Assembly (NCBI RefSeq): GCF_003382285.1
Contig: NZ_QTJR01000005.1
Location: 186,001 to 250,000 of the forward strand
DNA: 64,000 nucleotides
Reading direction: 5' to 3'
Origin: Lysobacter soli
Lineage (GTDB): Bacteria > Pseudomonadota > Gammaproteobacteria > Xanthomonadales > Xanthomonadaceae
The position numbers and the translations under genes were made by a program. The notes under the pieces are model-generated. The model did no database searches. It had not been told where the DNA came from and saw nothing but the letters and a program-made list of their open reading frames with translations. Positions 2 to 37,700 of this stretch are shown piece after piece. The stretch's first letter is position 1, and the number at the start of each line of letters is the position of its first letter.

Positions 2-118
2 CACGCCGCCGCCGGATTCGCGTACGCATCGGCATGGTTCGCCACGGCGATGGCGCTGGTTCGTTGCGGACTCCGCGTGCGACGCGAGCGAAAGACGCCG
101 GGAAGCGCACCGGCTTGA
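2..118 (+). CDS. C-terminal end of an unidentified membrane protein (partial)
   Basis: An open frame enters from the left edge and stops at TGA 116-118. The visible 38 residues contain a hydrophobic helix (AGFAYASAWFATAMALV) followed by an Arg/Lys-rich tail, typical of the cytoplasmic end of a polytopic membrane protein. The stop codon overlaps the FNR-type box of the next operon. Too little is visible to name the family; a denitrification-associated membrane protein is possible from context only. Confidence 0.4.
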   Translation, partial: HAAAGFAYASAWFATAMALVRCGLRVRRERKTPGSAPA

Positions 119-128
119 CCTGCGTCAA
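115..128. promoter_or_regulatory. FNR/Anr-type box upstream of the ubiT-nadA-nadB operon
   Basis: TTGAC-CTGC-GTCAA is a perfect inverted repeat matching the TTGAT-N4-ATCAA class of FNR sites. It ends 57 nt before the ATG at 186, a plausible distance for activation. A CX2CX5C FNR-type regulator is encoded at 19,581-20,351. Confidence 0.75.
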
Positions 129-185: not shown

Positions 186-1007
186 ATGATTCGCATCGCC
201 TCGGCGCCGCACGTGGCGCGCTTCGCGCTGCACGGCGCACGCATCGGCATCGACCGCGTCGACGACGCGATGATCGTGCTCCTCGCCGCGCGCCGGCGGC
301 TTGTGGCCGCGGTGGCGCCGGCCAAACGCGCGCTCCACGTCCCGGTTCGCGACATCGTGCGCGAAGCGCAGGTGCACGAACGCGCGCGTCGGCTCGCCGG
401 CCGGCTCAATCTTCCGCCCGCGTCAGCGGATCACCTGATGCAAACGCTCGTCGGCGACGCCTGCCAGCAGCAGGCCAATGAGGGCGCGACGACAGAACCC
501 GAACGCGCGCCGCGTTCGCCGCTGCGGCTCCTGCCGCCGCCGCGTTACTGGCGACTGCCGCTGTCGCTGGTGCCGGCGTCCGTGCGCGACGCGATCGCCG
601 TACGCGTGCTGTCCAGGGCCGTGGCCGATTCGCTCGATGCCGACGATCTCTCCGTCGTCGCGCATCGGCGACTCGGCATCGAGGTGACCGACCTGCATCT
701 GCGCTGGGTCCTGGAACTGCGCGACGGCCGCCTGCATCGCGCGGGCGAGCCCGCCGAAGCCGTCGTACACGGCACCGCGACCGACCTGCTGCTGCTCAGC
801 AGCCGGCAGGAAGACGCGGACACGCTGTTCTTCCAGCGCCGGTTGAAGCTCACCGGCGACGTGGAGCTCGGGCTGACCGTGCGCAACCTGCTCGACCGCC
901 TGCCGTGGGACACGCTGCCGCTCGCGGTCCGCATCCCGCTGAATCGCATCGCGCGCACGCTTCGCGACGCCCGTGCGGCGCACCACGCGACAGGAGCCGC
1001 ATCGTGA
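186..1007 (+). CDS. ubiT: Chorismate mutase (AroQ-type) fused to UbiT (SCP2 domain), anaerobic ubiquinone biosynthesis
   Basis: This 273-residue protein has two parts. Residues ~12-98 look like an AroQ-type chorismate mutase (IDRVDDAMIVLLAARRRLV, then PVRDIVREAQV and a C-terminal helix). Residues ~125-260 look like the SCP2 lipid-binding domain of UbiT, an accessory factor of O2-independent ubiquinone synthesis. Stand-alone UbiT proteins are about 170 residues, so the N-terminal half is extra. The ATG at 186 follows a GAAGGGG Shine-Dalgarno. The stop overlaps the nadA GTG start (GTGA), so translation is probably coupled. ubiV and ubiU lie in the facing operon, which supports the UbiT call. 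The link between chorismate chemistry and the chorismate-derived 4-hydroxybenzoate ring precursor is an inference. Confidence 0.78.
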   Translation: MIRIASAPHVARFALHGARIGIDRVDDAMIVLLAARRRLVAAVAPAKRALHVPVRDIVREAQVHERARRLAGRLNLPPASADHLMQTLVGDACQQQANEGATTEPERAPRSPLRLLPPPRYWRLPLSLVPASVRDAIAVRVLSRAVADSLDADDLSVVAHRRLGIEVTDLHLRWVLELRDGRLHRAGEPAEAVVHGTATDLLLLSSRQEDADTLFFQRRLKLTGDVELGLTVRNLLDRLPWDTLPLAVRIPLNRIARTLRDARAAHHATGAAS

Positions 1008-2026
1008 ACGCGTCCGACGCGATGCCGTACTGGCATCCCGACCTCGAAACGCGCCATGCGGCGCTGGTCGAAACCCTCACGCCGCTGATGCCGTGCATCG
1101 AGGTGACGACGCACCTGCCGTGGGTGGATGCGATCGCGCGCCTGAAGAAATCGCGCGGCGCGGTGATCATGGCGCACAGCTACCAGTCGCCGGAAATCTT
1201 CCATGGCGTGGCCGACGTCACCGGCGATTCGCTGGCTCTCGCGCAGGCCGCGGCGACTTGCGACGCCGACACCATCGTGCTGTGCGGCGTCCATTTCATG
1301 GCCGAAACGGCGAAAATCCTCGCGCCGCATCGCACGGTGCTGATTCCCGACCAAGAAGCCGGCTGCTCGCTCGCGGCGTCGATCACCGCTGACGACGTGC
1401 GTGCGCTGCGTGCGCGGCATCCGGGCGCGCCGGTGGTCACCTACGTCAACACGTCCGCCGCCGTGAAGGCCGAATCCGACGCGTGCTGCACCTCGGCCAA
1501 CGCCGTGCAGGTGGTGCGCGCGATGGGCGCGGACAAGGTGATCTTCCTGCCGGACCGCTTCCTCGGCGCGCACGTCGCCTCGCAGGTGGACGACGTCGAG
1601 CTGGTGCTGTGGGATGGCCGCTGCGAGGTGCACGAGACCTTCACCGTGCAGCAGGCGCGGCACGCGCGCGAACGCTTCGACGCGGCGCTCGTCGCGCATC
1701 CCGAGTGCCCGCCGGACGTGCAGGCGGAAGCCGATTTCGTCGGTTCCACCACGGCGATGGGTGCATGGCTGGAGAAGGCTCGGCCGCAGCGCGTGGCGCT
1801 GATCACCGAGTGCTCGATGGCCGACAACCTGCGCGTGCGCTTTCCCGACGTCGAGTTCATCAAGCCGTGCAATCTGTGCCCGCACATGAAGCGCATCACG
1901 CTGCCGAACATCCACGCGTGCCTGAAGGAACTGCGGCACGAGGTGACGGTGCCGCCCGACGTGGCCGCCCGTGCGCGCCGGGCGCTGCAACGCATGCTCG
2001 ACATCGGCCGGGCGGAGCGCGTGTGA
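1004..2026 (+). CDS. nadA: Quinolinate synthase NadA
   Basis: NadA condenses iminoaspartate with dihydroxyacetone phosphate to give quinolinate, the NAD ring precursor, using an O2-sensitive [4Fe-4S] cluster. The 340-residue protein shows the cluster region: VLCGVHFMAE, CCTSANAV, ECSMADN (Cys ~270) and CNLCPHMK (Cys ~289). The GTG at 1004 is chosen because it overlaps the preceding stop and follows CAGGAG; ATG 1022 is an alternative. The operon with ubiT and nadB behind an FNR box suggests induction at low oxygen. Confidence 0.92.
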   Translation: MNASDAMPYWHPDLETRHAALVETLTPLMPCIEVTTHLPWVDAIARLKKSRGAVIMAHSYQSPEIFHGVADVTGDSLALAQAAATCDADTIVLCGVHFMAETAKILAPHRTVLIPDQEAGCSLAASITADDVRALRARHPGAPVVTYVNTSAAVKAESDACCTSANAVQVVRAMGADKVIFLPDRFLGAHVASQVDDVELVLWDGRCEVHETFTVQQARHARERFDAALVAHPECPPDVQAEADFVGSTTAMGAWLEKARPQRVALITECSMADNLRVRFPDVEFIKPCNLCPHMKRITLPNIHACLKELRHEVTVPPDVAARARRALQRMLDIGRAERV

Positions 2027-3456
2027 CGCGGCCCGCGTCGCCGCCCGTCGTCGTGGTCGGCGCTGGCGTCGCGGGCCTGAGCGTCGCGCTGTCGGCGGCG
2101 CCGCGCGAGGTGATCCTGCTCGACCCCGGCGAGGCGGGCAGCAGCCGGCTCGCGCAGGGCGGCATCGCGGCCGCGCTGGCGGCCGGCGACAGCGTGCGTG
2201 CGCACGTCGCCGACACCTTGCAGGCCGGCGCATTCCACAACGACGAAGCCCTCGCGTGGTCCGTCCTCGGTGCCGCGCCGGATGCCGTCGCGTGGCTGCA
2301 GATCATGGGGGTGGCGTTCGATCGCGACGATCGCGGGCTGCAGCTCGGGCGCGAGGGCGGGCACGGCGCGCACCGCATTGTCCATGCCGGCGGCGATCGC
2401 ACCGGCGAGCGCGTCGTCGCCGCACTGCAGGGCCGCGCCGTGCGCGCCGGGCACGTGGAATGGCGCACCGGCGTGCAGGTCGACGGGCTGCTGCTGCGTG
2501 GGCGCAACGTCGCCGGCGTGCAGGTACGCAGCGCCGATGGGCGCGTGGAGACGATCGAAGCGGGCGCGGTCGTGCTAGCGACTGGCGGGCTGGGCGCGCT
2601 GTTCCAGCGCACTACGAATACCGGCACGACCAGCGGTTCCGGCCTGGCGCTCGCGATGGCGGCCGGCGCGCGCACGCGCGACCTGGAATTCGTGCAGTTC
2701 CATCCCACCGCGTTCGACGGCGTTGGCGATGGCGACGGGGCGCGGCTGCCGCTGATCACCGAAGCGCTGCGCGGCGCCGGCGCGAGGTTGATCGATCACC
2801 GCAGTCGTTCGCTGATGCGCGGGCACCATCCTCTTGGCGACCTGGCACCGCGCGACGTGGTGTCGCGCCGCGTGTGGGATGCGCGCCGCGACGGGCCGGT
2901 GTGGGTCGATGCGACGGGGCTTCGCAGCGGCTGGGAACGGGCGTTTCCGACCGTCGTCGAGACCTGCCGCGCGCGGGGCGTGGACCCGTACACGCAGCCG
3001 ATCCCGATCACCGCCGCCGCGCATTTCCACATGGGCGGCATCGCGACCGATCCACTCGGGCGCACATCGCTGCCGAATCTCCATGCCGTCGGCGAAGTAA
3101 CCTGCAACGGGCTGCACGGCGCGAACCGGCTCGCGAGCAATTCGCTGCTGGAGGCGGTCGTGTGCGGGCGGTGGCTCGGCGCGCACTTGCGGCTGGCGCC
3201 GAGCCGCACGTCGCGCGATGCGTTCCGCGCCGTGGCACTGGGCGACGGCCTGGAAGCGGGCGCGCTCGCCGCATTGCGACGCCGCCTCTGGGACGCCGCG
3301 GGCCCGGTGCGCACGCGCGCGGCGTTGTCCGCCGCCGTGCGCGAGATGAAGGCGATGGCGGCGTCGGGCTGGCAGGCGCGCGTGGCGCACGCGGTGCTGC
3401 AGGCCGCGCTGCTGCGGCCGGCGAGCCTTGGCGCGCACTGGCGCGCGGACGCCTGA
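2023..3456 (+). CDS. nadB: L-aspartate oxidase NadB
   Basis: NadB is an FAD enzyme that oxidises L-aspartate to iminoaspartate for NadA; E. coli NadB can use fumarate as acceptor without O2. The 477-residue protein has the N-terminal FAD-binding VVVGAGVAGLS (residues ~8-18), SSRLAQGGIAAAL, the substrate-side LEFVQFHPTAF and the ITAAAHFHMGGI segment typical of the succinate dehydrogenase/NadB flavoprotein family. The GTG start overlaps the nadA stop by 4 nt. It ends 6 nt before the converging ubiV gene. Confidence 0.92.
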   Translation: MTRPASPPVVVVGAGVAGLSVALSAAPREVILLDPGEAGSSRLAQGGIAAALAAGDSVRAHVADTLQAGAFHNDEALAWSVLGAAPDAVAWLQIMGVAFDRDDRGLQLGREGGHGAHRIVHAGGDRTGERVVAALQGRAVRAGHVEWRTGVQVDGLLLRGRNVAGVQVRSADGRVETIEAGAVVLATGGLGALFQRTTNTGTTSGSGLALAMAAGARTRDLEFVQFHPTAFDGVGDGDGARLPLITEALRGAGARLIDHRSRSLMRGHHPLGDLAPRDVVSRRVWDARRDGPVWVDATGLRSGWERAFPTVVETCRARGVDPYTQPIPITAAAHFHMGGIATDPLGRTSLPNLHAVGEVTCNGLHGANRLASNSLLEAVVCGRWLGAHLRLAPSRTSRDAFRAVALGDGLEAGALAALRRRLWDAAGPVRTRAALSAAVREMKAMAASGWQARVAHAVLQAALLRPASLGAHWRADA

Positions 3457-3462
3457 GGCGGG

Positions 3463-4344
3463 TCAGGCGCGCGCGGCCACGCCGCTCATTCCCGGTTCGC
3501 CATGCCAGTAGCCATTACGCTGCCCGATCGGCGCGACCGGCGTTTGCGCAGCGAGCGCTTCGACGAAATGTTCGATCACCGCCTGCATGCCGTCGGCCTG
3601 CGGATACAGCCGCAGCAGGTCCACGCGCAGATCGCGCAAGGCGGGCAGTTCCGGGCTGAGGTCGGTGACTTCCTCGCCCTGCACCTGGATGCCGTTGATG
3701 CGCAGGAACGGCCGGCCTTCGCGCGTGGACAGTGGCAGGCCGTCCGGATGTTCGATGCAGCGGAAGCCGCACTGGTCCTTGCCCACGTCCAGCGCACGCG
3801 CGGTGAAGCAGCGCGCCGAGTACGACAGCGGCAGGCGGCCCCACGCGACGACCTCCACCTGCGGCCGCGCCACGCCCTCGGCATCGAGCGCGCACAGCAG
3901 TTCGTCGATGAGCACGCGCCCCTGTTCGACGCCGGGCACCCAGCGGCGCAGGCCGTCGCGCATCAGCATCGCCAGCGCCGCGTGGTTGTAGACGTTGAGG
4001 CTGGGCCCGGCGACGAAGGGCACGCCGCGTTCGCGGCACAGCTGCACGGCGGACAGGTCGTTCGCTTCGATCCAGAAACGGCCGTGATCGACCAGTCGTT
4101 GCAGCGCGCCGAGTTCCGACTCGGCCTCGATCAACGCCAGCGACGACAGCACGACCTGGCGATCGGCCGCGGCGAGTTCCTCCGCGAGCGCGATCCAGTC
4201 GCGTGTGCGCAGCTCGCGCCGCTTGCTGCAGACGGTTTCGCCCAGGTAGATCGTGTGCAGCGGCCAGTGCGCGGCTTCGCGATAGAAGGCTAGCGTGCGT
4301 TTGCGCGGCCAGAAATACTGCAGCGGGCCCAAGGTCAGTTGCAT
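3463..4344 (-). CDS. ubiV: UbiV, O2-independent ubiquinone hydroxylation protein
   Basis: A 293-residue U32-peptidase-like protein. Cys39, then a Cys followed 13 residues later by a second (in YSARC..KDQC) and 4 residues later by a third (CGFRC), reproduces the spacing of the four [4Fe-4S] ligands reported for E. coli UbiV. UbiU-UbiV perform the ring hydroxylations of ubiquinone synthesis without O2, with prephenate as oxygen donor in E. coli. The gene starts 12 nt after ubiU and is the last of the leftward operon. Confidence 0.92.
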   Translation of the reverse strand: MQLTLGPLQYFWPRKRTLAFYREAAHWPLHTIYLGETVCSKRRELRTRDWIALAEELAAADRQVVLSSLALIEAESELGALQRLVDHGRFWIEANDLSAVQLCRERGVPFVAGPSLNVYNHAALAMLMRDGLRRWVPGVEQGRVLIDELLCALDAEGVARPQVEVVAWGRLPLSYSARCFTARALDVGKDQCGFRCIEHPDGLPLSTREGRPFLRINGIQVQGEEVTDLSPELPALRDLRVDLLRLYPQADGMQAVIEHFVEALAAQTPVAPIGQRNGYWHGEPGMSGVAARA

Positions 4345-4356
4345 GTCGATCGCACC

Positions 4357-5355
4357 TCAGTGCCACGCGCGGTGGTAGGGGCCAAGCGTGGTCTGGTGAC
4401 CTTCGGCGTGGGAGGACAACGTGGATTGCCACTGCGCCTGTGGCCTCCAGTCGGCCGGCGCGTTGCGGTGGCGATCCAGCGCCGCGCGCCAGGTGCGCGT
4501 GACGGCGTCGACGTACGCCGCGCCGCGCTGGCGGCCTTCGATCTTCAGCGCCGCGACGCCGGCCTGCGCGAGGCGCGGGATGAGTTGGAGCGTGTTGAGG
4601 CTGGTGGGTTCTTCCAGCGCGTGGAAGACCTCGCCGCCGACGCCATAGCGCCCCTTGCAGACGGTCGGGTACGCGGCCGGTTCCTCCGGTTCGAAGCGGT
4701 CGATCAGCACGTCGTTGAGCCGCACGCTGCGCGTGCCGCCGGCGTGGTCTTCCCATCGCACGAACTTCGCCGGTGAACACACGCCGTGGCGGTTCGGCGA
4801 GGCACCGGTGACGTAGCTGGACAGCTGGCAGCGGCCTTCGACCATGATGCACAGGCTGCCGAACGCGAACACTTCCAGCGGGACCGGCGCGGTTTGGCAG
4901 AGGCGTTCGACCTGCTGTACGGACAGCACGCGCGGCAGCACCGCGCGCGCGATGCCGAAGCGTTCGTACGCATAGCGCAGCGCCGGCGCGGTCGTCGCCG
5001 AGCCCTGCACCGACAGGTGCCGGGGCAGCGCAGGATGGTTGCGGCATGCGTAGTCGAGCACCGCCATTTCGGCGGCGATGATCGCGTCCACGCCCAGCTC
5101 CGCCGCGGTGTCCACCGCGCGATGCCAGTGCGACAGGTGTGCGCTGTCGGGATAGGTGTTCAGGGCGACGTAGACGCTGCGCCCGCGTGCCCGCGCATAC
5201 GCGGTGCCCTGGCGGATTTCCGCGTCGCTGAAGTTCAGGCCGGGAAATGCGCGGGCGTTGGTCTGGTCGCGGAAGCCGAGATAGACCGCATCGGCGCCGG
5301 CATCGATGGCCGCGCGCAACGCCGGCAGGTTGCCGGCGGGGCAGACGAGTTGCAT
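4357..5355 (-). CDS. ubiU: UbiU, O2-independent ubiquinone hydroxylation protein
   Basis: A 332-residue U32-peptidase-family protein beginning MQLVCPAGNLPALRAAI. The cluster region FGSLCIMVEGRC, then HGVCSPAK and TVCKGRYG gives CX6CX16C plus a distal Cys, matching the ligand spacing of E. coli UbiU. It forms a heterodimer with UbiV, encoded next. The ATG at 5355 follows a GGAG; the frame stays open further upstream but that part is antisense shadow of ubiD. It lies 35 nt after ubiD. Confidence 0.92.
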   Translation of the reverse strand: MQLVCPAGNLPALRAAIDAGADAVYLGFRDQTNARAFPGLNFSDAEIRQGTAYARARGRSVYVALNTYPDSAHLSHWHRAVDTAAELGVDAIIAAEMAVLDYACRNHPALPRHLSVQGSATTAPALRYAYERFGIARAVLPRVLSVQQVERLCQTAPVPLEVFAFGSLCIMVEGRCQLSSYVTGASPNRHGVCSPAKFVRWEDHAGGTRSVRLNDVLIDRFEPEEPAAYPTVCKGRYGVGGEVFHALEEPTSLNTLQLIPRLAQAGVAALKIEGRQRGAAYVDAVTRTWRAALDRHRNAPADWRPQAQWQSTLSSHAEGHQTTLGPYHRAWH

Positions 5356-5390
5356 GGGAACTCCAGTAGCGGAAAGAGGGAAGCGGCGCG

Positions 5391-6902
5391 TCACGACAGC
5401 GCCGCATCGCCTCCGTAATCGCCCTCGTCGCTGCGTGCGCGGCCGATCCGCTCCCAGATCGCATCGACGCGGCGCTCCACGCGCGGATCCAGCGTGATCG
5501 GCCGGCCCCATTCGCGATCGCTTTCGCCGGCCCACTTGCGCGTGGCGTCCAGCCCGAGTTTGGAACCCAGGCCCGAGCTCGGGCTGGCGAAATCCAGGTA
5601 GTCGATCGGCGTGTTCTCGATGAGCACGCTGTCGCGCGCCGGGTCCACGCGCGTGGAGATCGCCCAGATCACCGCGCCCCAGTCGCGCACGTCGATGTCC
5701 TCGTCGGTCACGATCACGAACTTGGTGTACGTGAACTGGCGCAGGTACGACCACACGCCGAGCATCACGCGCCGCGCGTGGCCCGCGTACCGCTTGCGGA
5801 TGCTGACCACCGCGACGCGGTACGAGCAGGCTTCCGGCGGCAGGTAGAAGTCGACGATCTCCGGGAACACGCGCCGCAGGATCGGCACGAAGATATCGTT
5901 CAGCGCCATCGACAGCACCGAGGGTTCGTCGAACGGCGCGCGCCCCATGTAGCTGCCGTGATAGATCGCGTTGCGCCGCAGCCGCATGCGTTCCACCGTC
6001 AGCACGGGGAACGGCGCCTGCACATTGTAGTAGCCGGTGTGGTCGCCGAAGGGGCCTTCCAGCGCGGTATCGCCGGGGTGGATGAAGCCTTCCAGCAGGA
6101 TTTCCGCACCGGCGGGCGCGTCCAGCCCGGTCAGATCGCTGTGCCACAGGCGCGTGCGTGCGCCGCGCAGCAGGCCGGCGAATTCGTATTCGGAAAGCGT
6201 GTCCGGCACCGGTGCGACCGCGGCGAGCATCGTCGCGGGGTCGGCGCCGATCGCCACCAGCACCGGGAAGGGGCGATCCGGATGCATTGCCTGCCAGCTC
6301 GCATGATCCTGCGCGCCGCCGCGGTGCGCGAGCCAGCGCATGATCACGCGGTTGCGCGCGATCGGCTGCTGCCGGTAGATCGCCACGTTCTGCCGCGCCT
6401 GCCGCGTGCCGCGCGTGATCACCAGGCCGAATGTGATCAGGCGATCCACGTCCTCCGGCCAGCAGCGCTGGATGGGCAGGCGCCGCAGGTCGATGTCGGC
6501 GCCTTCGAGCACCTCTTCGTTGAAAGGAGCATCGTGCTCGCGTTTCGGCGCGACGTGCGCCAGCTGCGCCAGTTCCGGCCACGTGGCGAGCGCGCCGCGC
6601 AGGCTCGACGGCCAGCGCGGTTCCTTGATCGCCGCGAGCAGTTCGCCGAGTTCGCGCAGCGACGCGACCGGACGGTCGCCCATCGCCAGTTCGATGCGCG
6701 AGCGGTGCCCGAACAGGTTGCCCAGCAGCGCATGCGTCGAGCCGGTGGCGTTGTGCATCAGCAGCGCCGGACCGTGCGCGCGCAGGGCACGCAGGCTCAG
6801 CGCGGTGCTTTCCAGTTCCGGGTCGATGGGCGCATCGATCTCGAGCAGTTGCCCGCGTGCGCGCAGGCGTTCCAGGAACTGGCGCAGGTCGTGGAAGCTC
6901 AT
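5391..6902 (-). CDS. ubiD: UbiD family 3-polyprenyl-4-hydroxybenzoate decarboxylase
   Basis: A 503-residue prenylated-FMN decarboxylase removing the carboxyl group of prenylated 4-hydroxybenzoate. Family landmarks include [34 protein letters not shown] and the C-terminal [19 protein letters not shown]. Length is normal for UbiD. The ATG at 6902 is chosen because [13 protein letters not shown] is a typical UbiD start. It lies between the small CCGGC gene (16 nt) and ubiU, so a dedicated decarboxylase is co-expressed with the anaerobic hydroxylases. No ubiX is visible here. Confidence 0.9.
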
Positions 6903-6918
6903 CGGCGTGCCGCGGCGA

Positions 6919-7182
6919 TCAGCCGCAACCGCAGCCGCCGCAGCAACCGCCGCTGGAATGCGGATCGTCGCGATCGTCCAGCGACGCGCGCCTTGGCGCC
7001 GCATCCACGCCCAGGCCGCCGAGGATCGCGATGACTTCCAGCTCGTCCAGGATGGTCGATACGCTCAGTTGCCCGCCGTCGTCCCCGATGCGGACTTCGG
7101 CATCGGGGTCGAATTCGCGCAGTGCGCGGGTGAGTTGCCCTTCGCGCTCGGTGAGCGGTTGCGGGTTGTGCACGGCGATCAT
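6919..7182 (-). CDS. Small protein with C-terminal CCGGC cysteine cluster (family 1 of 2)
   Basis: An 87-residue protein that opens the leftward ubi operon, 58 nt behind an FNR-type box. Its body ([24 protein letters not shown]) resembles a compact alpha/beta fold of the heavy-metal-associated type. It ends in [12 protein letters not shown], a likely metal-binding tail. The body and tail are clearly related to the protein at 12,642-12,875. I do not recognise a named family. Metal carriage or regulation for the anaerobic cluster is an inference from the tail and the neighbours. Confidence 0.75.
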
Positions 7183-7240: not shown

Positions 7241-7254
7241 TTGACCGAAGTCAA
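7241..7254. promoter_or_regulatory. FNR/Anr-type box upstream of the ubiD-ubiU-ubiV operon
   Basis: TTGAC-CGAA-GTCAA is a perfect inverted repeat, 58 nt before the start codon of the leftward operon at 7182. It also lies 20 nt past the 3' end of oprC, so it can only serve the ubi operon. Confidence 0.75.
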
Positions 7255-7274: not shown

Positions 7275-9359
7275 TCAGAACTTGTAGTTGAGCTTCACCC
7301 ACGCGCTGCGGCCGGGCTCGTTGATGCGCACCGGATCGGCGGGGTAGCCGAAGGCGCTGTTGCCGGCGAGGTTGAGGTGCTCGGCGTAGGTGCGGTCGAA
7401 CACGTTGTCGATGCCGGCGGCGAGCTGCAGCGTCTGCGTGAAGCGGTAGCCGCCGTTGAGCGAGAACACCGCGAAGCCCGGCGTCGGCGCGAGGTCCTGG
7501 CCGACGACGTTGCCGTAACCGGGGCTCATGCGATCCTGCGAGGCCGCCACGCGGAGCAGGGCGCCGACCGACCAGCGCTTGTTGTCGTAGGCCGCGTTGA
7601 GGCGTGCTTCCAGCGGCGGCGTCTGCGGCATCGCGCCGACGTGGTCGACCTCGCCCCACGCGTAGGCGAGGCTGCCGCCGAGCTTCCATGCACCGGTCGG
7701 GCGGAACTCGACGCCGACTTCGCCGCCGTGCGTGCGCGCATCGACGTTGGTGGCGCGCGTGGTCGCGCCCATCATCCCTTCGGAATATTCGAACAGGATG
7801 TAGTCCTGGATGCGTCCGGCGTACAGCGACGCCCACGCGTCCCAGCGGCCCTCGCGGTAGTGCATGCCGATGTCCAGCTGCGTGGTGCGCTCGGGTTCGA
7901 TGCCGGCGAAGGCGTTGACCGAACCGGCCGGCCCCAGCGTCGGGGAGAACAGCTCCCAGTAGTCGGGCATGCGCTGGACGTGGCCGAGGCCGAGGTGCCA
8001 CATCGCCGCCGAACCTTCCGGCTGGATTTCCCAGCGCACTAGGCCCGAGGGCAACGTCTCGCGGCGCGTCGTGCCCTGCGTCGGATTCGGCCGCGGCATC
8101 ATGCTGCCGATCGTGGCGCGTTCGTCCTGCACGGACGCGCGATCGATGCGAAGCCCGCCGACGAGCCGCTGCCGCGGCGCGAGGTTCCAGCCCAGTTCGG
8201 CGAACACGCCGACGTTGTCCGAACGCGCGTCGGTCGTCCACGGCTGCGCGAGGTACGCATCGCGGCCCGTCGCGTTGCGCTTGCGATGGCGGTTGTCGCG
8301 CGCGTCCAGGCCGGCGTCGAGGTTCCATCCGTCGGTGCTCCACGCGAACGCGAGGCGCCCGCCCTGCGTGCGTTGCGCGACGTTGCTCGCCATCGGCATC
8401 GGCATGCTGCTGCCGGCGTCGGGCTCGCGCAGCGTGTAGTTGTCCATGACGTGGTCGACGTCGTTGTAGTACAGCCGCGCTTCGACCTTGTCGAAGGCGC
8501 CGTCGAAATTGCGGCGTTCCGCGCGCAGGCCGTAACTGGTGCGTTCGAACTGCGAGCCGTCCATGCCGCGGCCCGCGTAGCGCGCCTCGCCGTCGCCGCG
8601 GCCGGCGCTTGCTTCGACCAGCGAATCGGCATCGGGCGTCCAGCCGAAGGCGACGTCGGCGTTCCACTTCTTCCACGCCGACGGCACGACGTTGCCGTCA
8701 CCGTCGTCGTAGTCGTCGGACTGCGAGCGGTTCGCGGTGACGCGCGCATACGCGCTGGCGTTGCCGAACGCGGTATCGACCACCTGGTCGTCGCGTCCGA
8801 AGCTGCCGAAGGTAGCACTCGCGTTGAGCTGCATGCCGGGCGCATCGAAGAAGGGGATGTCGCGTTCGAACCGCACCGTGCCGGCCGAGGCGCCCGGGCC
8901 CCACAGCACGGTCTGCGGCCCCTTGACGACTTCCAGGCGGTCGTAGGTTTCCGGCGACACGTACGACAACGAGTTGTCCATGCGCGCCGGGCACGCGCCC
9001 TGCATGTGGCCGCCGTCGGTCATCAGGTTCAGGCGCGAACCGAACATGCCGCGAAGCACGGGGTCGCCATTGGTGCCGCCGCTGCGGATCAGCGAGAACC
9101 CCGGCACCGTCTTGAGGTAGTCGGCGCCGTCGCTCGCGGGCACCGGCTGGCGCGGCAGCTTGGTGTCGGTGACGAAGGTCATCGCGAGCGTGGGCGTCAC
9201 GTCGGTCACGACCAGCGTGTCGAGCGTGACCACGCCGTCGTGGTGCGCCGCGCCGTCGGCCGCCGCGCAGGTGCCCGCGATCAGCAGCGACAGGGCGACG
9301 CACAGCGGACGTGCGGCGGGGATGCGATCGCGAGGGCGGAACGCGGGAAGGCGGATCAT
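7275..9359 (-). CDS. oprC: TonB-dependent copper receptor OprC/NosA-type
   Basis: A 694-residue outer-membrane receptor. It has an N-terminal export signal, a TonB-box-like [11 protein letters not shown] after it, a plug domain with [21 protein letters not shown] and [18 protein letters not shown], and a beta-barrel ending in Phe (VKLNYKF). The Met/His-containing [12 protein letters not shown] fits the copper receptors OprC/NosA. It is transcribed away from nirK, whose product needs copper. ATG 9359 is chosen over GTG 9368. An FNR-like box lies about 93 nt upstream, so anaerobic control is likely. Confidence 0.87.
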
Positions 9360-9452
9360 GGGAGTCACCGGGATCGTTTCGGGGAATTCGCCGGCGACCC
9401 GCGCCGGGTCGCCTGTTGCAGCGAAGTCTCCGCGCGCGGCAAGGCTCCGAAA

Positions 9453-9502: not shown

Positions 9503-9516
9503 TTGACTTACATCAA
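9503..9516. promoter_or_regulatory. FNR/Anr-type box upstream of nirK
   Basis: TTGAC-TTAC-ATCAA, one half-site base from consensus, ends 70 nt before the nirK ATG. Confidence 0.75.
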
Positions 9517-19580: not shown

Positions 19581-20351
19581 ATGAGTGATCCACAAGTAAT
19601 CGACCTCGAAGCACTCCGGCGTCGATGTAGCCAATGCTCGTTACAACAGCTCTGCCTGCCAGCAGGCGTATCAGCGCAGGACCTCGATCAGCTCGACTCC
19701 ATGGTTCGCCGGCGCAAGACCGTAGGAGCTGCGGAACGCCTCTTCCGCGCCGGTGACAACTTCGCCGCTGTCTACGTCGCGCGCGAAGGTGCATTCAAAA
19801 CCGTATGCATAAGCTCGGAGGGCGAGGAGCAAATTGTCGGGTTTCATATACCCGGGGAGATCATTGGCCTCGATGCAATGGGTGAAGGTCGGCACCGCTG
19901 CGAGGCGATCGCACTAACAAAGGCGAACGTGTGTGAAGTTCCGTTCGCTCAGTTGACAGAGATTGCCGCGCGGGTTCCGGGACTGCAGCGCCAGCTACTG
20001 CGTGTGATCGGCAAGGACATCAATCGCGCTCACGAGCACACTTCCAACTTAGCGGCTCGCCGAGGCGCGCATGAGCGGCTGGCGCTGTTCCTGCATGGGC
20101 TTTTGCAACGATATCGTCTCGTCAACGGCAAGGCATCAAGCACGTTCAAACTGCCGATGAGCCGGGAGGATATCGCCCGCTACCTGGGCATGGCTAACGA
20201 GACGGTTAGTCGAGCTTTTGCCCGTCTTCAGACGGACCGGGTGATCGTTATAGCGGGACGCCGAGTGGATGTTCTGGATGAGGATCTACTGACCCAAGCC
20301 GCGCATCCCGTTGATGAGATCGATCGGGCCACACCTCGCACCGCTAGTTGA
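19581..20351 (+). CDS. fnr: FNR/Anr-type [4Fe-4S] oxygen-sensing transcription regulator
   Basis: A 256-residue Crp/FNR regulator. Cys16, Cys19 and Cys25 (CX2CX5C) plus Cys118 in NVCEVPF match the four cluster ligands of E. coli FNR. A cNMP-type beta-roll follows (VAREGAFKTV, FHIPGEIIGLDAM), then a dimer helix and the helix-turn-helix SREDIARYLGMANETVSRAF with the ETVSR recognition residues that read TTGAT half-sites. It lies just after norB. The FNR-type boxes at 115, 7241, 9453, 9503 and 16233 are likely targets. Confidence 0.9.
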   Translation: MSDPQVIDLEALRRRCSQCSLQQLCLPAGVSAQDLDQLDSMVRRRKTVGAAERLFRAGDNFAAVYVAREGAFKTVCISSEGEEQIVGFHIPGEIIGLDAMGEGRHRCEAIALTKANVCEVPFAQLTEIAARVPGLQRQLLRVIGKDINRAHEHTSNLAARRGAHERLALFLHGLLQRYRLVNGKASSTFKLPMSREDIARYLGMANETVSRAFARLQTDRVIVIAGRRVDVLDEDLLTQAAHPVDEIDRATPRTAS

Positions 20352-27346: not shown

Positions 27347-27606
27347 CCAGCGGGGGCGGGGGATTAGGAAGCTTTATCACGGGTAGAAGAGGGGACCTGC
27401 GGTTGTTATCGGCAACCGATCGCTGGGACCGGCCTTTCCGACGTGCCCCATTGCCTCGGTCCCATGGAAACTGTGCGTCTTGCCCCAGTTGCTAGCTCGA
27501 CACACGCGATTTGCATTGCAGGGCTCCACATAGACTTGACAGCCGCAGGGCGAGTTGCGGATGCTCGCCGCTCGGGGAAGGACTCGGTCCACAAGGATTG
27601 CGGACA

Positions 27607-29769
27607 ATGGCACAGTGCAGTGCGGTGCTTTCCATTCTGGAAGGCGCTCCAGAGTGCGTCGCAGTTGATCAGGGCTTGCAAGGACTCGTGCTCCTTGCGC
27701 AATTCCATGGAGTAGCGGCCGATGCCGCGCAATTGGCGCACGAGTTCGGCCGCAATGGCGAGCAGTTCGACGAAACCACACTCCTGCTTGCGGCGAAGAA
27801 GCTTGGGTTGAAAGCCAAGGTTAGCGCGCAGCCGGCGTCTCGGATCGCGATGGCGAGCCTGCCGGCACTCGCCCTATTGCCCGACGGCGATGCGTTCATC
27901 GTCGCCAAGGTCAACGGCGAACAGGTGCTGATCCACGACCTCGCCGAGAAACGGCCGCGGACGATTTCGGCCGACGAGTTTCAGGCGCGGTATGGTGGCC
28001 GCCTGCTTCAAATCGCGTCGCGCGCTTCCGTGCTCGGCAATCTGGCCAAATTCGATTTCAGCTGGTTCATTCCGGCGGTGGTGAAGTACCGCAAGCTGCT
28101 GCTCGAAGTCTTCATCGTGTCCTTCTTCATACAGCTGTTCGCGCTCGTGACGCCGCTGTTCTACCAGGTGGTGATGGACAAGGTACTCGTGCACCGGGGG
28201 CTGACGACGCTGGATGTCATCGCGATCGGCCTGGTGTCGATGGCCATCTTCGAAGTGGTGCTGACCGGCCTGCGTACGTACGTTTTTTCGCACACGACCA
28301 GCAGGATCGACGTGGAGCTGGGGGCGCGCCTGTTTCGCCACGTGCTGGCGTTGCCGCTGGCGTACTTCGAATCCCGCCGCGTCGGCGACACCATCGCTCG
28401 CGTGCGGGAGCTGGAGAACATCCGCAGCTTCCTCACTGGGCAGGCGCTGACCTCGGTGCTCGACCTGTTCTTCACCGTCGTCTTCCTCGCGGTGATGTTC
28501 TACTACAGCGGTTGGTTGACGTTGATCGTCGTGCTGTCGCTGCCAGCGTACGCGCTGATCTCCGCCGCCATCACGCCCGTACTGCGCAAGCGGCTCAACG
28601 AGAAGTTCGCGCGCGGCGCAGACAACCAATCGTTCCTCGTCGAGACGGTCAGCGGCATCGGTACCGTCAAGGCGATGGCGGTCGATCCCCGCGTCACGCG
28701 CACCTGGGACAACCAGCTGGCCGGCTACGTCAACGCCGGATTCGGTGTCACGCGCGTGGCCACGCTGGGCCAGCAGAGCGTGCAGTTGGTGCAGAAGCTG
28801 GTGAGCGTGGCGATCCTGTTCTGGGGCGCCAAGCTCGTCATCGAAGGCAAGCTCTCCGTCGGTCAGCTGATCGCCTTCAACATGCTGGCCGGACAGGTCG
28901 CGGCGCCGATCATCCGCCTCGCGCAGCTGTGGCAGGACTTCCAGCAGGTCGGCATTTCGGTCGAACGCCTGGGCGACATCCTCAACACCCGTACCGAAGT
29001 TCCCGGCAGCCGCATGGCGCTCCCGGCGATCGAGGGGCGGGTAACGTTCGAGCGCGTGTCGTTCCGCTATCGGCCCGATGCGCCGGAGGTGCTGACGGGC
29101 ATCGACCTCGACATCAAGCCCGGTGAAGTGATCGGCATCGTCGGTCGCTCGGGTTCGGGCAAGAGCACGCTGACCAAGCTGGTGCAGCGGTTGTATACGC
29201 CCGAGCGCGGGCGCGTGCTGGTCGACGGACAGGACCTGGCGTTGGCCGATCCCGCCTGGCTGCGTCGCCAGCTGGGCGTCGTGCTGCAGGAGAACTTCCT
29301 GTTCAACCGCAGCGTGCGCGAGAACATCGCACTCAGCGATCCCGGCATGCCACTGGAGCGCGTGATCCATGCCGCGCAACTGGCGGGGGCGCATGACTTC
29401 ATCACCGAACTTCCGGAAGGCTACGACACCAAAGTCGGTGAGCACGGCACCGGCCTGTCGGGTGGACAGCGTCAGCGCATCGCCATCGCGCGCGCGCTCA
29501 TCACCGATCCGCGCATCCTGATCTTCGACGAGGCGACCAGTGCGCTCGACTACGAGTCGGAGCATGCGGTGATGCGCAACATGCGGTCGATCTGCAAGGG
29601 ACGCACGGTGCTCATCATCGCGCACCGGCTTTCGACCGTGCGCCACGCCAATCGCATCGTCGTGGTGGAGAAGGGGCGGATCGTCGAAAGCGGCAGCCAT
29701 GCCGAACTGGTCGATCGACCCGACGGCCATTACGCGCACCTGCACCGGCTGCAGTCGGGGGAAGCATGA
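27607..29769 (+). CDS. Type I secretion ABC transporter (HlyB-like)
   Basis: A 720-residue inner-membrane exporter. Residues ~1-125 form a peptidase-C39-like domain in which the catalytic Cys is absent, as in HlyB ([17 protein letters not shown]). Residues ~150-430 are the six-helix transmembrane domain. Residues ~470-715 are the ATPase: Walker [10 protein letters not shown], signature [15 protein letters not shown], Walker [14 protein letters not shown]-loop IIAHRLSTV. An inactive C39 domain fits RTX substrates without a double-Gly leader. ATG 27607 follows AAGGA. The stop overlaps the adaptor start (ATGA). Confidence 0.92.
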
Positions 29770-31187
29770 AGCACGTCCTGCACGGCCTTCGGGATTTCGC
29801 GGCGCGGTACGTCGATATATTCCGTTCCGCATGGAAGATCCGCGCCCAGCTCGATCCGCCGCAACGCACGGCCGATGAACGTGCGTTCCTTCCTGCACAC
29901 CTGGAGCTGACCGAAGCGCCGGTGTCTCCGACAGCACGCTGGACCATGCGGATTATCGTGGCGTTCTTCTGCGTCGCGTTGCTGTGGGCCTGCATCGGGA
30001 AGCTGGACATCGTCGCCGTGGCACCGGGCAAGACCGTCGTCGATTCGCGCACGAAGGTCGTGCAGCCGGCGGAAACCGGCGTGGTCCACCGCATCCTCGT
30101 GCGTGATGGACAGGCGGTGAAGCAGGGACAGCTGCTGATCGAACTGGATGCGACGGCCACTGGGGCCGAGCGTGCACAGGCGAGCGAAGCGCTGGTGAAC
30201 GCGCGCCTGGCGGTGTTGCGCCTGGACGCGCTCGCTACGTCGCTGCAACGCAATGCGGCGCCGGCCCTGACCGCCGCTGCGGATCTCCCGCCTGACCGAA
30301 TGAACGCCGAGAAGGCGCTCGCGCGCAGCCAGTACGAGACCTACCAGGCCAAACGTCAGGCACTCGAGGCCAACATCGCCCAGCGACACGCCGAACTGCG
30401 CACGACCGGGGCGACCATCGCGCCGCTGGACGAATCGGCGCGCATCTCGAAGGAACGTGCGCAGGACTACGGCAAACTGGTCGAAGGCAAGTACGTCGGC
30501 CGCCACGAGTACCTGTTGCGCGAGCAGGAGCGCATCGCCGCCGAGCGCGACCTCGCCACCCAGCGCAACCGCGTGCAGGAGATCCGGTCGGCGTTGAGCG
30601 CGGCCGAAGAAGAGTTGCGCGTGCTCGTCACCGACACGCGCCAGCAGACGCTGGACCAGCTGCGGCAGGCGACCGAGCAGGTCGCGCAGCTCACGCCGGA
30701 AGTCGCCAAGACGGGGCAGCGCGACAGGCTGATGGCCTTGCGTGCACCCGTCGACGGCACCGTGCAGCAACTTGCCGTGCATACCGTCGGTGGAGTGGTG
30801 ACGCCGGCACAGCCATTGATGGTGGTGGTGCCGAGCGAGGAAGCACTGGAGGTCGAAGCGACGATCCTCAACAAGGACATCGGCTTCGTGCGTGCCGGAC
30901 AGCCGGTCACTGTGAAGGTCGAAAGCTTCCCGTACACGCGTTACGGCTATCTGAAAGGAATCGTCGCAAGCGTGTCCCACGATGCGGCGCAGGACGAGCA
31001 GTTGGGCCTGGTGTTCCCTGCACGAGTCCGGCTCTCCGGCGCGAGCCTCAACATCGACGGCGTGGAGGTAGGGTTGACGCCCGGCATGGCGTTGAGTGTC
31101 GAGATCAAAACGGGGAAGCGGCGCGTGATCGACTACCTGCTCAGTCCATTGCGGCAACACGGAACCGAAGCATTGAGGGAACGCTGA
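29766..31187 (+). CDS. Type I secretion membrane-fusion protein (HlyD-like)
   Basis: A 473-residue adaptor. There is one N-terminal membrane helix ([16 protein letters not shown], ~65-80), a lipoyl half ([19 protein letters not shown]), long coiled coils over residues ~180-320 and a second lipoyl half ([19 protein letters not shown]). It bridges the ABC transporter to a TolC-type channel. No TolC gene is in the window, so an unlinked one must be used. Confidence 0.92.
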
Positions 31188-31668: not shown

Positions 31669-31749
31669 CCTCGCTTCGATTCGATGCAAATGAAAGGAAA
31701 CGGCGGATCCCTGACGGATCCTGCGCAACCCTTACCCAAGGAGTGGACC

Positions 31750-34700
31750 ATGACCGTATACACCTCCTCGACGCTGACTGCGGCCGAGATCACCCGCCTG
31801 TACCTGTTCGGCCAGTCGGAGGTTCCCGCTGACCTGACGAGTGACAATGTGATCGGCATGTCGCACAGCAACGCGGCCACGCCGATCGTCGTTGACGCCC
31901 AGGATTATATGGTCAACGGTGCGGGACGCTACGCGCTCGCGTCGCTGTTTCCGATGGTGCAGAAATTCTTCGAGCTCGGCAGCACGATGCTCGCGCCTGG
32001 TGTTTACACAAAGGACGACATCAACGCGTTGCTGTTCAACGGCAACGGTCAATACACCATCGTCCAGAAGCAGTGGGCGTATGACCCGGACAGTGCCGAC
32101 TACGCCACGCGCGTGCACGTGTGGAACACGACGCAGTACATGCTGGATGAAGGCGTGCGCTTCGTCGTCGGCGAGGATGGCAAGCTGTCGATTCACAACA
32201 TGGCGGTCAGGCCAGCGCAGTTCGAAGGCCGGGACCACGCGGTGGACAACTTCGATTTCAACTCCCGCGATGGCCTGGCGGGTCTTGCCGGTCCCTACAC
32301 CGGCAACATCATGGACCCGTCCAAGATAGGTACGCGGGTTGAGATCCAGTTCACCGACAACGTGATGATTTCTGACACGGTCTACGACTACGCCGACTTC
32401 ATGGCCGACAAGGCGAACGAGGTGGAGCCGTTACCGTTCTGGCCTCCCTCATTGCTCGGGAAGATGCAGGCGCTCTACGACGACGTTTTCGCCACTGGCG
32501 CGGACAGATTCCTGGATGAGAACGGGCGCCCGATCCTGTACGGCACGAATGGAGCGGACTCCCTGAACTCCTTCACCACCGCGTATGGGAATTTCGTCGC
32601 GAGCCACCGGCACTACTCTTCGTACCTGGCCAACGGCGTGGTGCTGGTGGGCGGCGATGGCAACGACGAGATCCGCGCAGATGACAGCCAGAGCGGCCCG
32701 GATGCTCTGTATGGCGGCAGCGGGAACGATCGCCTGTTCGGCAGCTTCGGCAAGGATGAGTTGTACGGAGGAAAGGACGACGACGTGTACCGGATCGGCG
32801 ATGCGGAGGATCGCGTCATCGAGTATGCGGGCGAGGGCACTGACACGGTGGAAACCTGGGTCGACTTCGTACTCCCCGACCATGTCGAAAACCTGCGCCT
32901 TTACGAAGACCCTGACATCTTGACCACGATTGGCAGCGACCTGAATGGTACGGGCAACGCGCTGGACAACAAGATCTGGGGCAATTCCTTCGACAATGTG
33001 CTGCGCGGCGAGGGCGGGAAGGATTACATCGAAGGCGGCGACGGCAACGATACGATCGCCGGCGGGACCAGCGACGACCAGATTTTTGGTGGCGAGGACG
33101 ACGATGTCATCGACGGTGGCGATGACAACGACGAACTCTATGGTCAGGACGACAACGACGAACTCAAGGGCGGCAGCGGACGCGACTATCTCGACGGCGG
33201 CGATGGCAGCGACAAGCTGTTCGGGGGTAGCGGGTACGATTTCTACCGTGCGGACGAGAGCGATACGATCGACGACGAAGACGGGGCTGGCCGCGTCCAC
33301 ATGGACGGCCTGGGCACGCTGACGGGCGGCAAGCGCAAGGAGTCCGACCCGCAGAACGAATACCGCAACGGAAGCACGCTGTATGTGCTCGACGGCACCA
33401 CGCTGACCATCAACGGCGGGTTGACCATCAACAACTTCAGCAATGGCGAGCTGGGCATCTTCCTTGAAACGGAAGAGGACGAGGAGGAGGAAGAGGACGA
33501 GGAAGGCCCCGACACCGGTCCGGCTGAGCGCCGCACCTCGCCGATCGTGATCGACCTCGATGGCGACGGCGTCGAGACGACGGGCATGGCGCGCGATCGC
33601 TACTTCGATCACGACGCGAACGGAATGCGCGAGCGCACCGCATGGGCCTCGCCCGACGATGGGTTCCTCGTGCGCGACCTCAACGGCAACGGACGCATCG
33701 ACGACGGCCGCGAGATGTTCGGCAACCAGACGCGGCTGGGCAATGGCGCACTCGCCGCGAACGGCTTCGAGGCCTTGCGCGAACTGGATGGCAACCAGGA
33801 CGGTGTGATCGATGCCACTGACGCAGCGTTCGCCAGCTTGCGCATCTGGCGCGACGCCAACAGCAACGGACGCACCGATTTGGGCGAACTGCTGACGATG
33901 GAGCAGGCCGGCCTGGCGGCCCTGCGCACGTCGTGGCAGAACTCCAGCCATGTCGATGCGAACGGACAGGCGCACGCGCAGGTGGGCACGGCCGTGCGAT
34001 CGGACGGGACCGTGGCGGCAGCGGCAGACGTGTGGTTCCAGGTGGATACGACGCACCGGATCAACGATCAGGTCGCCGGAAGCGCGTGGTTGGCGCTGGC
34101 GGACCTTCCGGACGCCAAGGCGTTCGGCAATCTGCCGGACCTGCGCCAGGCCATGGCCGCCGATCCCGAACTCAAGGCGATGGTCGAGACCTTCGTGTCG
34201 GCAACGGATCCAGCCGTGCGCGAGAACATGCTGGAAGGCCTCATTTTCCAGTGGGCCGGAGTCGCCGACGTCGATCCGAACAGCCGCGATCCGCGCATGG
34301 TGTACGGGCACGTGATGGACGCGCGACAGCTGATCGTGCTCGAACAGCTCGTGGGGCGTGGGTACGAAGGGACCTGGTGCTGGGGCGAGCGCGACCCGAA
34401 TCCGCACGGCAATGCAGCGCCGTTGCTGATCGCGGAGTTCAAGAAGTTCCAGAACTACGTGCGCGCCCAGCTGCTCGCACAGACCGATGCGGCGAGCTAC
34501 GGCTTCATCCGCGGCGGCTTCGGCTCCGGTTACGCGTCGGTCGTCGTGGACTGGGCGCAATTCCACGAGCAGGTCGAATCGATGCGTGCCAGCGGCGACA
34601 TCGCGGCGCTGTCCGAGATCGTCAGCGTGGTGCGGGGACTGGGCACGTATTCCCCGTCCTTCCGCGGCAAGGCCGACCGGGCGTTCTCCGACCTGCAGGC

Positions 34701-37700
34701 GGAATACCCTGATCTCGCGCCGGTGTTCAACACGCCGTCGCTGATCGGTACGCAAGGACGCGACACGTTGTTCGGCGGATCGCAGGGCGAGGTGATCGTC
34801 GGCGACAAGGGCGACGACACCATCTTCGGTGGCGGCGGCAACGACAACTACTACTACCGCGTCGGCGACGGCAAGGACCGCGTTTACGACAGCAGCGGCG
34901 TGGACCAGCTGGTGTTCATGGACGGCATCGTCGCGGGCGATGTGTCCATCACGCGCGATCTCACCTCGCTCTTCGTGGCTGTGAATGCGGGAGGGTCCAT
35001 CGGCGAAATCCGCATCGACAACGTGTTCGACGAGAACGGCCACCTGCGCGAAGGCGTGATCGAGCAGATCAAGTTCCAGGACGGCACGACGTGGGCCTGG
35101 CAGGACATCCTGTCGCACATCGCGATGCCGGTGACGCCGGGCGACGACACTCTCTACGGCAACACCGGTGCCGACGTGCTGTCTGCGCAGGCGGGCAACG
35201 ATCGCCTGCTCGGACTGGACGGGGACGACGCACTGTCTGGCGAGGCCGGCGACGACACGCTGGTGGGCGGAAACGGCAACGACATTCTCGATGGCGGCGC
35301 CGGCAACGACATGCTCAACGGCGGCGCAGGCAATGACACGTACGTTTTCGCCAGCGGCTTCGGCAACGACGTCATCGAGAATTACGACGACACCGCGCAG
35401 CGCATGGACGTGGTGCAGTTCGCGGCGGGCATCTCCGCCTCGAACGTGATGGTCTCGCGTTCTATCGACGACCTCGTGCTGACGCTGTCCAGCGGCGACA
35501 CGCTACGCGTGCGCTACCACTACAGTGGCGAAGGCAGCAGCCGCTACGGTCTCAACGAAGTGCGCTTCGCCGATGGCACCGTGTGGGATGCCCAGGCGCT
35601 GAGGGCCAAGGCATTGGGGGGCACGGCGGGCGACGACAGCCTCACCGGGTACTCGACCGATGACGTGCTGCAGGGACTCGACGGCAACGACTACCTGCGC
35701 GGAAACGGGGGCAACGACCAGCTGTCCGGCGACGCGGGCGACGACTTCCTATTCGGCGATGGGGGCACGGACCAGCTCGCGGGCGGAGCCGGCGACGACC
35801 GGCTGAGTGGCGGCGAGGGCGATGACTTGCTCGAGGGCGGACTCGGCCAGGACCGACTCGAAGGCGGGTACGGTGCGGACGTGCTCTCCGGCGGCGAAGG
35901 CGACGACGAGCTGTATGGCGAGGGCGGAGACGACCAGCTGCGCGGCGGCTTGGGCAACGACACCCTCGAAGGCGGCCACGGCGACGATCGCTACTACTTC
36001 GCGCGCGGCGACGGCAAGGACACGATCCACGACGCGGGCGGGCAGACGACCATCTACGTCTCGGACCTGTCGCTGCAGCAGGTGTACTTCCGCCGCGAGG
36101 AAACGTCGCTGGTCATTCGCTTCGGCGACAGCACTGACGACGAGATCCGGCTGCGCCATTTCTTCGGCATCGATGGACTCGCGCTCGGCGGCCTGCGCAT
36201 CGATCCGGGGAATGGTCAGCCCTGGGACATCAGCGCGGCGGATCTCGATGCGCAGGTACTACTGGCCACGACGTTTGACGACGTCATCCAGGGGAACGCG
36301 CACGATAACCTCGTGCAGGGCCTGGGGGGCAACGACACGCTGCACGGGTATGGCGGTGCCGACCAGCTCGATGGCGGCGACGGCAACGACGTCCTCGTGG
36401 GCGGCAACGGCGACGACACGCTGACGGGCGGCATCGGCGACGACGTGCTCGACGGCGGCGAGGGGAACGACCAGATGACCGGCGGCGACGGCATCGACAG
36501 CCTGTCGGGCGGCGCGGGCAACGACGTGCTCGATGGCGGTTTCGGCGGCGACGTACTCGACGGCGGCACCGGGGTCGACACGCTGTCCGGGGGCGCCGGC
36601 AACGATCGCCTGCTGGGCAGCGACGGCGACGACGAACTGCTCGCAGCGGACGGCAACGACGAACTGGACGGTGGGACTGGCACGGACCGCATGACCGGTG
36701 GCACGGGCGACGACGTCTACACGGTGGACGATATCGGCGATGTCGTGACCGAAGCGCAGGGCGAAGGCGACGACCGCATCCGCAGCTCGGTAAGCCTCAC
36801 CATTGCCGCGCATGTCGAGACGCTGGAACTGGTCGGCGCGGGCGACGTATCCGCCACTGGCGATGCCGGCGACAACCAGCTGATCGGCAACGTCGGCAAC
36901 AACGTGCTCACTGGCCTGCAGGGCGACGACTACCTGGAGGGCCGCGACGGCGACGATCATCTCGTTGGAGGCGAGGGCAACGACGTTCTCGACGGCGGCT
37001 ACGGCACCGACACGCTGGAAGGCGGGAGTGGAAACGACCAGTACCGCGTGGACAGCGTCGCCGATACGATCGTCGAGAATGCGGGTGAAGGCGACGATAC
37101 CGTGCTGGCGAGCGGCAGCTACCAGCTGTCCGCCAATTTGGAAAGCCTGCTGCTCATGGAGCAGACCAGCGCGTACGACGGCTTCGGCAACGATCAGGAC
37201 AACAGCATCATCGGCAACAGCTACGGCAACCGCATCGACGGCCGCGGCGGAGAGGACGTCATGCAGGGCCACGAAGGCGACGACATCTACGTCGTGGACA
37301 ACGTCGGCGACGAGGTCGTGGAATTCCACGGTCAGGGCCACGACAGCGTCGAGGCGTCGATCGATTACGTGCTCGGCGACACGCTGGAGAACCTGACCCT
37401 GACTGGCACGGCCGATCTCGATGGCACCGGCAACGCGCAGGACAACATGTTGATCGGCAACGACGGCAACAACCGCCTCGACGGCGGCCTGGGCGGGGAC
37501 CTGATGCTCGGCGGCAACGGCAACGACGTATTCGTCAACGACTCCGGCGATGACTGGATCGTGGAAGTCGAAGACGAAGGAACCGACACGGTCGAACGCC
37601 GCTACGAGACCAACCTGATCCTGTCGGACAACGTCGAGAACCTGGTGCTTGTGCAGGGCGTCACGACCGGCAACGGCAATGACCTGGACAACACCATCAT

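Follow-up and report, generated by a model that had tools for sequence, protein, structure and literature searches.

A chorismate mutase fused to UbiT as a candidate prephenate supply for the UbiU-UbiV pathway in Lysobacter soli and its relatives

Introduction

In a stretch of 64,000 nucleotides of the Lysobacter soli genome (hereafter the window, meaning the whole stretch of DNA that was analysed), one reading frame joins an apparent chorismate mutase (CM) to UbiT, an accessory protein of the oxygen-independent route to ubiquinone, which raises the question of whether the added domain is an enzyme and what it would do on such a protein. UbiT has been proposed to bind lipid intermediates in a passage of PMC6747719, and a passage of PMC11707229 describes its function as incompletely understood. 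Prephenate, the product of chorismate mutase, was taken by the first-pass annotation of this locus to be the oxygen donor of UbiU-UbiV, and a passage of the review PMC11574389 indeed names it as the oxygen donor of that pathway, while noting that direct evidence for U32 enzymes performing the prephenate reaction is still missing. For TrhP, another U32 protein, a section of PMC6599085 reports that tRNA hydroxylation was restored by prephenate that was either made by CM or added. We consider it likely, with a probability of about 0.72, that CM-UbiT is a dedicated prephenate supply for UbiU-UbiV and that its AroQ domain is an active mutase. This reading is supported by the presence of both domains, the intact catalytic residues, the wide retention of the fusion, its co-inheritance with UbiU, and the recurrence of separate CM genes beside ubiT.

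Domain structure of the fusion protein

186..1007, + strand: CM-UbiT fusion gene, 273 aa (ORF list, translation, Pfam and NCBIfam profiles)
240..473, + strand: AroQ-type CM domain, residues 19-96 (PF01817, 3.7e-14)
474..563, + strand: linker, residues 97-126, without internal start codon
564..911, + strand: UbiT / SCP2 domain, residues 127-242 (NF047962, 2e-35)

The proposal that an AroQ-like CM and UbiT lie in a single chain was borne out by curated profiles, both domains scoring over their cut-offs. Pfam CM_2 (PF01817) gave 53.1 bits on residues 19-96 (cut-off 27), and the NCBIfam UbiT equivalog NF047962 gave 121.8 bits on residues 127-242 (cut-off 46.9), with Pfam SCP2 at 58.6 bits on residues 147-237 (cut-off 21.3). 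The frame opens with an ATG, immediately 5' of which lies the purine-rich GGGAAGGGG. A separate UbiT start inside the window gene was rejected, as no ATG, GTG or TTG stands in frame in the linker of this gene (L011). In several relatives, the fusion gene does contain an ATG in frame close to where UbiT begins, from which UbiT might also be produced on its own.

The AlphaFold2 model (mean pLDDT 88.3, pTM 0.68) places helices at residues 7-49, 57-73 and 78-99, matching the helix count of an AroQ fold, followed by a mixed alpha-beta domain. When the single sequence was used as the query, the solved relative closest to the N-terminal half was the E. coli CM domain 1ecm (7e-6). None of the NCBIfam CM models, equivalogs and domains alike, exceeded its own cut-off, the best reaching 43.8 against 120 bits; together with the CM tree described below, these scores suggest that the fusion CM forms a separate branch.

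We also considered whether the AroQ-like domain performs other chemistry, for example as an isochorismate or chorismate lyase that perhaps yields 4-hydroxybenzoate, which we regard as highly improbable. Pfam detected no chorismate lyase (UbiC) match in the host genome, an observation that favours such a lyase and that leaves the UbiC route to 4-hydroxybenzoate, part of the first-pass annotation, unsupported; xanthomonads, however, make 4-hydroxybenzoate through another enzyme, XanB2. The PchB lyases do match the fusion profile weakly, but a PDB search with the 70-row fusion profile gave 4.4e-13 for the E. coli CM structure 1ecm against 2.6e-5 for PchB. Likewise, the isochorismate lyase model scored far below the best CM model, and identity as an isochorismate pyruvate lyase (PchB) was rejected at 15.9 bits, under the profile cut-off of 126.

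Catalytic residues and selection

Whether the mutase half is likely to be active was addressed with an alignment of 70 fusions, consisting of the window protein and the 69 of 79 named fusions that survived a redundancy filter; these other 69 are 45-81% identical to the window protein. Only 8 of the 81 columns in the CM half are invariant (R19, D23, D26, R36, K47, R59, E60 and Q96), and they include the equivalents of E. coli R11, R28, K39, R51, E52 and Q88, residues that we take to be catalytic in the E. coli CM. All six are invariant in 70/70 fusions (hypergeometric P 9e-8 for their falling among the eight, a rough value as the rows are related). The catalytic Arg/Lys set, whose absence had been named beforehand as grounds for abandoning the mutase reading, is thus present throughout. 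In an earlier set of 14 fusions, host included, the same residues were kept with the sole exception of an H at Q88 in L010. The equivalent of D48 (E. coli numbering) is D in 66/70 fusions and N in 4/70. An invariant catalytic set is the pattern expected of an enzyme selected for catalysis.

Alternatively, the domain might turn over no substrate and serve instead for dimerisation or binding, either organising UbiT or sensing chorismate or prephenate, an option that appears rather unlikely. It would be in keeping with the shortness and helical make-up of the CM half in the AlphaFold2 model, and AroQ enzymes are dimers. Moreover, the equivalent of S84, presumably an active-site residue of the E. 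coli CM as well, is replaced in every aligned fusion (A in 65/70, G in 5/70). A module that has lost turnover is nevertheless hard to reconcile with six catalytic positions that stay strictly invariant while most other columns vary.

Both halves also appear to be under purifying selection, as indicated by dN/dS of close pairs in a run on 81 sequences (window-L012: CM 0.12, UbiT 0.20; L097-L099: CM 0.07, UbiT 0.09). The medians over 1983 pairs, 0.49 for CM and 0.38 for UbiT, are probably inflated by saturation.

Gene neighbourhood

1004..2026, + strand: nadA, quinolinate synthase (359.1 bits, cut-off 294)
2023..3456, + strand: nadB, L-aspartate oxidase (best 454.7 bits, under the cut-off of 528)
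3463..4344, - strand: ubiV (NF047965, 348.2 bits, cut-off 275)
4357..5355, - strand: ubiU (NF047963, 524.3 bits, cut-off 440)
5391..6902, - strand: ubiD-type decarboxylase (TIGR00148, 464.1 bits, cut-off 244.85)
6919..7182, - strand: 87-aa ORF with a Cys-rich C-terminus (no family match in Pfam or NCBIfam)

The nadA-nadB pair that had been placed after the fusion gene is indeed there. Each junction in the series from fusion gene to nadA to nadB is a 4-base overlap, that between the fusion and nadA reading GTGA. Against TIGR00551, nadB scored 439.6 bits, under the cut-off of 452.75, and the ubiD-type decarboxylase scored 689 bits against PRK10922, under the cut-off of 788. Convergent to these genes lies the group of the 87-aa ORF, ubiD, ubiU and ubiV (3463-7182, - strand), of which the 87-aa ORF is likely the first gene; it has matches above 20 bits in 4/80 named loci (the best 80 of 285).

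UbiT membership is further marked by co-occurrence with UbiU and UbiV, both of which lie nearby in the window. The window UbiU has cysteines at 169, 176, 193 and 233 and UbiV at 39, 179, 192 and 196, and a passage of PMC6747719 gives the cluster cysteines of the E. coli proteins as 169, 176, 193 and 232 (UbiU) and 39, 180, 193 and 197 (UbiV). By sequence, then, the predicted cluster cysteines are kept in both window proteins. Among named loci, ubiU and ubiV both lie within the locus in 54/60, and nadA follows the fusion by at most 400 bases in 46/74 of those reaching far enough.

Distribution and origin of the fusion

A survey of UbiT homologues for the fusion found it spread over four families. 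Among 59 genomes, host included, UbiT exceeded its cut-off in 17, of which 14 were fused and 3 plain. Across 250 genomes of the order, the full CM-UbiT fusion occurred in 32 among the matches listed, which reach E about 3e-12, distributed as 16 in family f1, 11 in f12, 4 in f3 and 1 in f2. Plain UbiT occurred in at least 35 of the 250, all in families f7, f8, f9 and f11. Three of the 32 fusion rows (G021, G141 and G243) report stops in the matched stretch, though the frame of G021 is open across both domains.

At the level of named loci, a single frame encodes both CM and UbiT in 79 of 80, the remaining locus being unreadable there, a share that overstates that of fusions among UbiT genes generally because these loci are the best 80 of 285 relatives, ranked by similarity to the fusion. 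Two of the 80, L087 and L088, come from a single record. Given this recurrence in 79/80 named loci, a chance ORF or a misassembly was rejected. An apparent loss of CM in L107 was dropped, as the relevant sequence reads N. The genera named are Lysobacter, Xanthomonas, Pseudoxanthomonas, Stenotrophomonas, Arenimonas, Thermomonas, Luteimonas, Dyella, Rhodanobacter, Frateuria and Mizugakiibacter, among others, and from these names we take the order to be Lysobacterales. One fusion (L084) lies in a metagenome-assembled genome titled Erythrobacter, perhaps a label or binning error.

In searches of 369 class-level and 398 phylum-level genomes, none of the matches outside the order spans the CM half; such matches were found in 87 genomes of the class and 51 of the phylum, 3 of them shared, or 135 in all. 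In a CM tree of 26 hand-picked fusion rows with six PheA and TyrA rows, the fusion rows group together to the exclusion of PheA and TyrA (94/91; 96% of bootstrap trees), which points to a single fusion event. The UbiT-domain tree of 87 rows branches too weakly to bear out a single fusion origin.

Co-inheritance with UbiU and separate CM genes beside ubiT

If the mutase serves UbiU-UbiV, the two would be expected to travel together. All fusion genomes (32/32) have UbiU, which in G107 is a fragment scoring below cut-off, and so do all 6 genomes with plain UbiT that were tested. UbiU is absent from G213, G045 and the 14 tested genomes that have no UbiT match over cut-off. Wherever the fusion is intact among these 54 genomes, UbiU is present too. 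Two of the genomes without UbiU have an incomplete locus: G213 (L171) has a decayed gene with a changed UbiT and no CM match, and G045 (L172) has a CM without UbiT in which the K39 position is R, judged by eye. These are apparent remnants of the fusion left by loss of the pathway.

A second line of evidence comes from bacteria in which the two domains are separate. Of the 135 UbiT genomes found outside the order, 115 were compared for the places of CM and UbiT. In 5/115, from five families (G560, G422, G314, G454 and G507), a small, unfused CM gene sits no more than 0.4 kb from the ubiT match. About 0.11 such neighbours within 1 kb would be expected against the 5 observed (P about 1e-7, roughly estimated from a Poisson model in which genome size and CM number are assumed values). 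All five genomes have ubiU-ubiV in the same region as the CM/ubiT pair, and in G454 and G507 this CM gene is the only CM match in the genome. By eye, the five neighbours keep R11, R28, K39, R51 and E52 but not Q88.

These observations bear on a further explanation, namely an active CM domain whose product goes into ordinary phenylalanine and tyrosine synthesis at low oxygen, with shared regulation as its only link to UbiT. In L045 (13456-14520, - strand) and L046 (13352-14437, - strand), the frame immediately upstream of ubiU, in the same orientation, is a putative prephenate dehydrogenase that ends in a CM domain, an arrangement that would suit amino-acid synthesis. So would the lack of a neighbouring CM in most UbiT genomes tested: 110/115 outside the order have none beside ubiT (5/115 gave no match to CM), and a second set of 55 genomes, 53 from outside the class, adds another 43: every genome in it whose UbiT place is listed lacks a CM beside ubiT, the place being unlisted in the other 12. 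Against this stand the restriction of the intact fusion to UbiU genomes, with mere remnants in two that lack it, and the five other families in which an unfused CM gene again stands next to ubiT. Moreover, the host already has another CM: at E 0.001, CM_2 matches only one further frame in this genome, of 435 aa, which by its sequence looks like PheA. Since it also leaves the fusion to a lipid-binding protein unexplained, we judge a role in ordinary amino-acid synthesis to be distinctly unlikely.

Proposed role and relation to known systems

We hypothesize that CM-UbiT acts as a dedicated source of prephenate, in which the lipid intermediates of oxygen-free ubiquinone synthesis would be bound by the UbiT (SCP2) domain at the C-terminus, the role proposed for UbiT of E. 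coli, while the N-terminal AroQ domain, most likely active judging by its residues, would convert chorismate to prephenate near UbiU-UbiV. At low oxygen, UbiU-UbiV could then use prephenate from the fused mutase as the oxygen donor for ring hydroxylation. A second mutase beside the PheA-like one could track oxygen status rather than phenylalanine feedback. We infer catalysis, delivery to UbiU-UbiV and escape from phenylalanine feedback alike. More tentatively, and with less than even odds in our estimation, the fused mutase may sit inside a UbiT-UbiU-UbiV complex and pass prephenate to the iron-sulfur hydroxylases without release. Were such a metabolon to exist, UbiT would be a delivery platform for oxygen donor and lipid together, and a shikimate-pathway enzyme would be a structural part of quinone synthesis.

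Parallels to this arrangement are found on both sides of the fusion. The P-protein PheA and the T-protein TyrA join an AroQ CM to prephenate dehydratase and prephenate dehydrogenase, respectively, and thus likewise couple the mutase to a prephenate-using enzyme; the fusion CM shares the catalytic residues of E. coli PheA. In the present fusion, however, the partner of the CM is a lipid-binding accessory protein, and the fusion CMs form a clade of their own. With E. coli UbiT (YhbT), the window protein shares an SCP2 domain, here over the UbiT equivalog cut-off, as well as ubiU-ubiV nearby and FNR-like sites, but the E. coli protein is given in a passage of PMC6747719 as 174 aa, mainly the SCP2 domain, and here a CM domain stands in front. 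In Zymomonas mobilis, UbiT is also joined to a partner from the same pathway; that partner is UbiU, in two genomes according to the same passage of PMC6747719, whereas here it is CM, in four families. Fusions of CM to prephenate users (PheA, TyrA) and of UbiT to UbiU (PMC6747719) are therefore already known. A search of titles and abstract starts, which did not cover the PNAS 2024 oxygen-donor paper or supplements, found no publication on a CM-UbiT fusion. Term searches of PMC6747719, PMC11707229, PMC13386864 and PMC10470549, covering 12 of 14 places in PMC11707229, gave no passage on one, and the words 'fused' and 'fusion' are absent from PMC11707229 and PMC13386864.

The fusion in four families and the separate CM beside ubiT in five others constitute a genetic tie of prephenate to the pathway, a form of evidence that is independent of the E. 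coli experiments. In many bacteria of one order, a single protein seems to unite the source of oxygen with the place where it is used. CM-UbiT also offers a single protein in which the supply of prephenate could be turned off via one residue.

FNR-like sites and other features of the window

115..128, + strand: FNR-like site TTGACCTGCGTCAA, 57 bases 5' of the fusion ATG
7241..7254, strand not assigned: FNR-like site TTGACCGAAGTCAA, before the ubiD-ubiU-ubiV group
19581..20351, + strand: FNR-type regulator with Cys 16, 19 and 25 (PRK11161, 5.9e-60, 202.6 bits, under the cut-off of 228)

The first-pass annotation had also placed an FNR box at the head of the fusion gene. An FNR-like site does stand at 115-128, with two mismatches to TTGATN4ATCAA, but a lone site of this kind is little proof because 20 matches with at most two mismatches occur in the window against 9.2 expected. 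The weight of this site comes from its conservation in four congeners (identical in L012 and L013, variants in L014 and L015) and not from its own sequence. In the 300 bases that precede the CM domain, 10/77 loci have a strict FNR-like site against 0.03 expected, which is above chance but not general; control of the fusion by FNR across the lineage is therefore not supported. The host has one narG match, at 36.2 bits against a cut-off of 1084.

A TonB-dependent copper receptor gene lies at 7275-9368 (- strand; TIGR01778, 812.5 bits), with another FNR-like site at 9503-9516 upstream of it. Farther along the window, genes for a type I secretion ATPase and adaptor of the HlyB and HlyD families (27511-31187, + strand) are followed by an ORF of 2743 aa (31684-39915, + strand).
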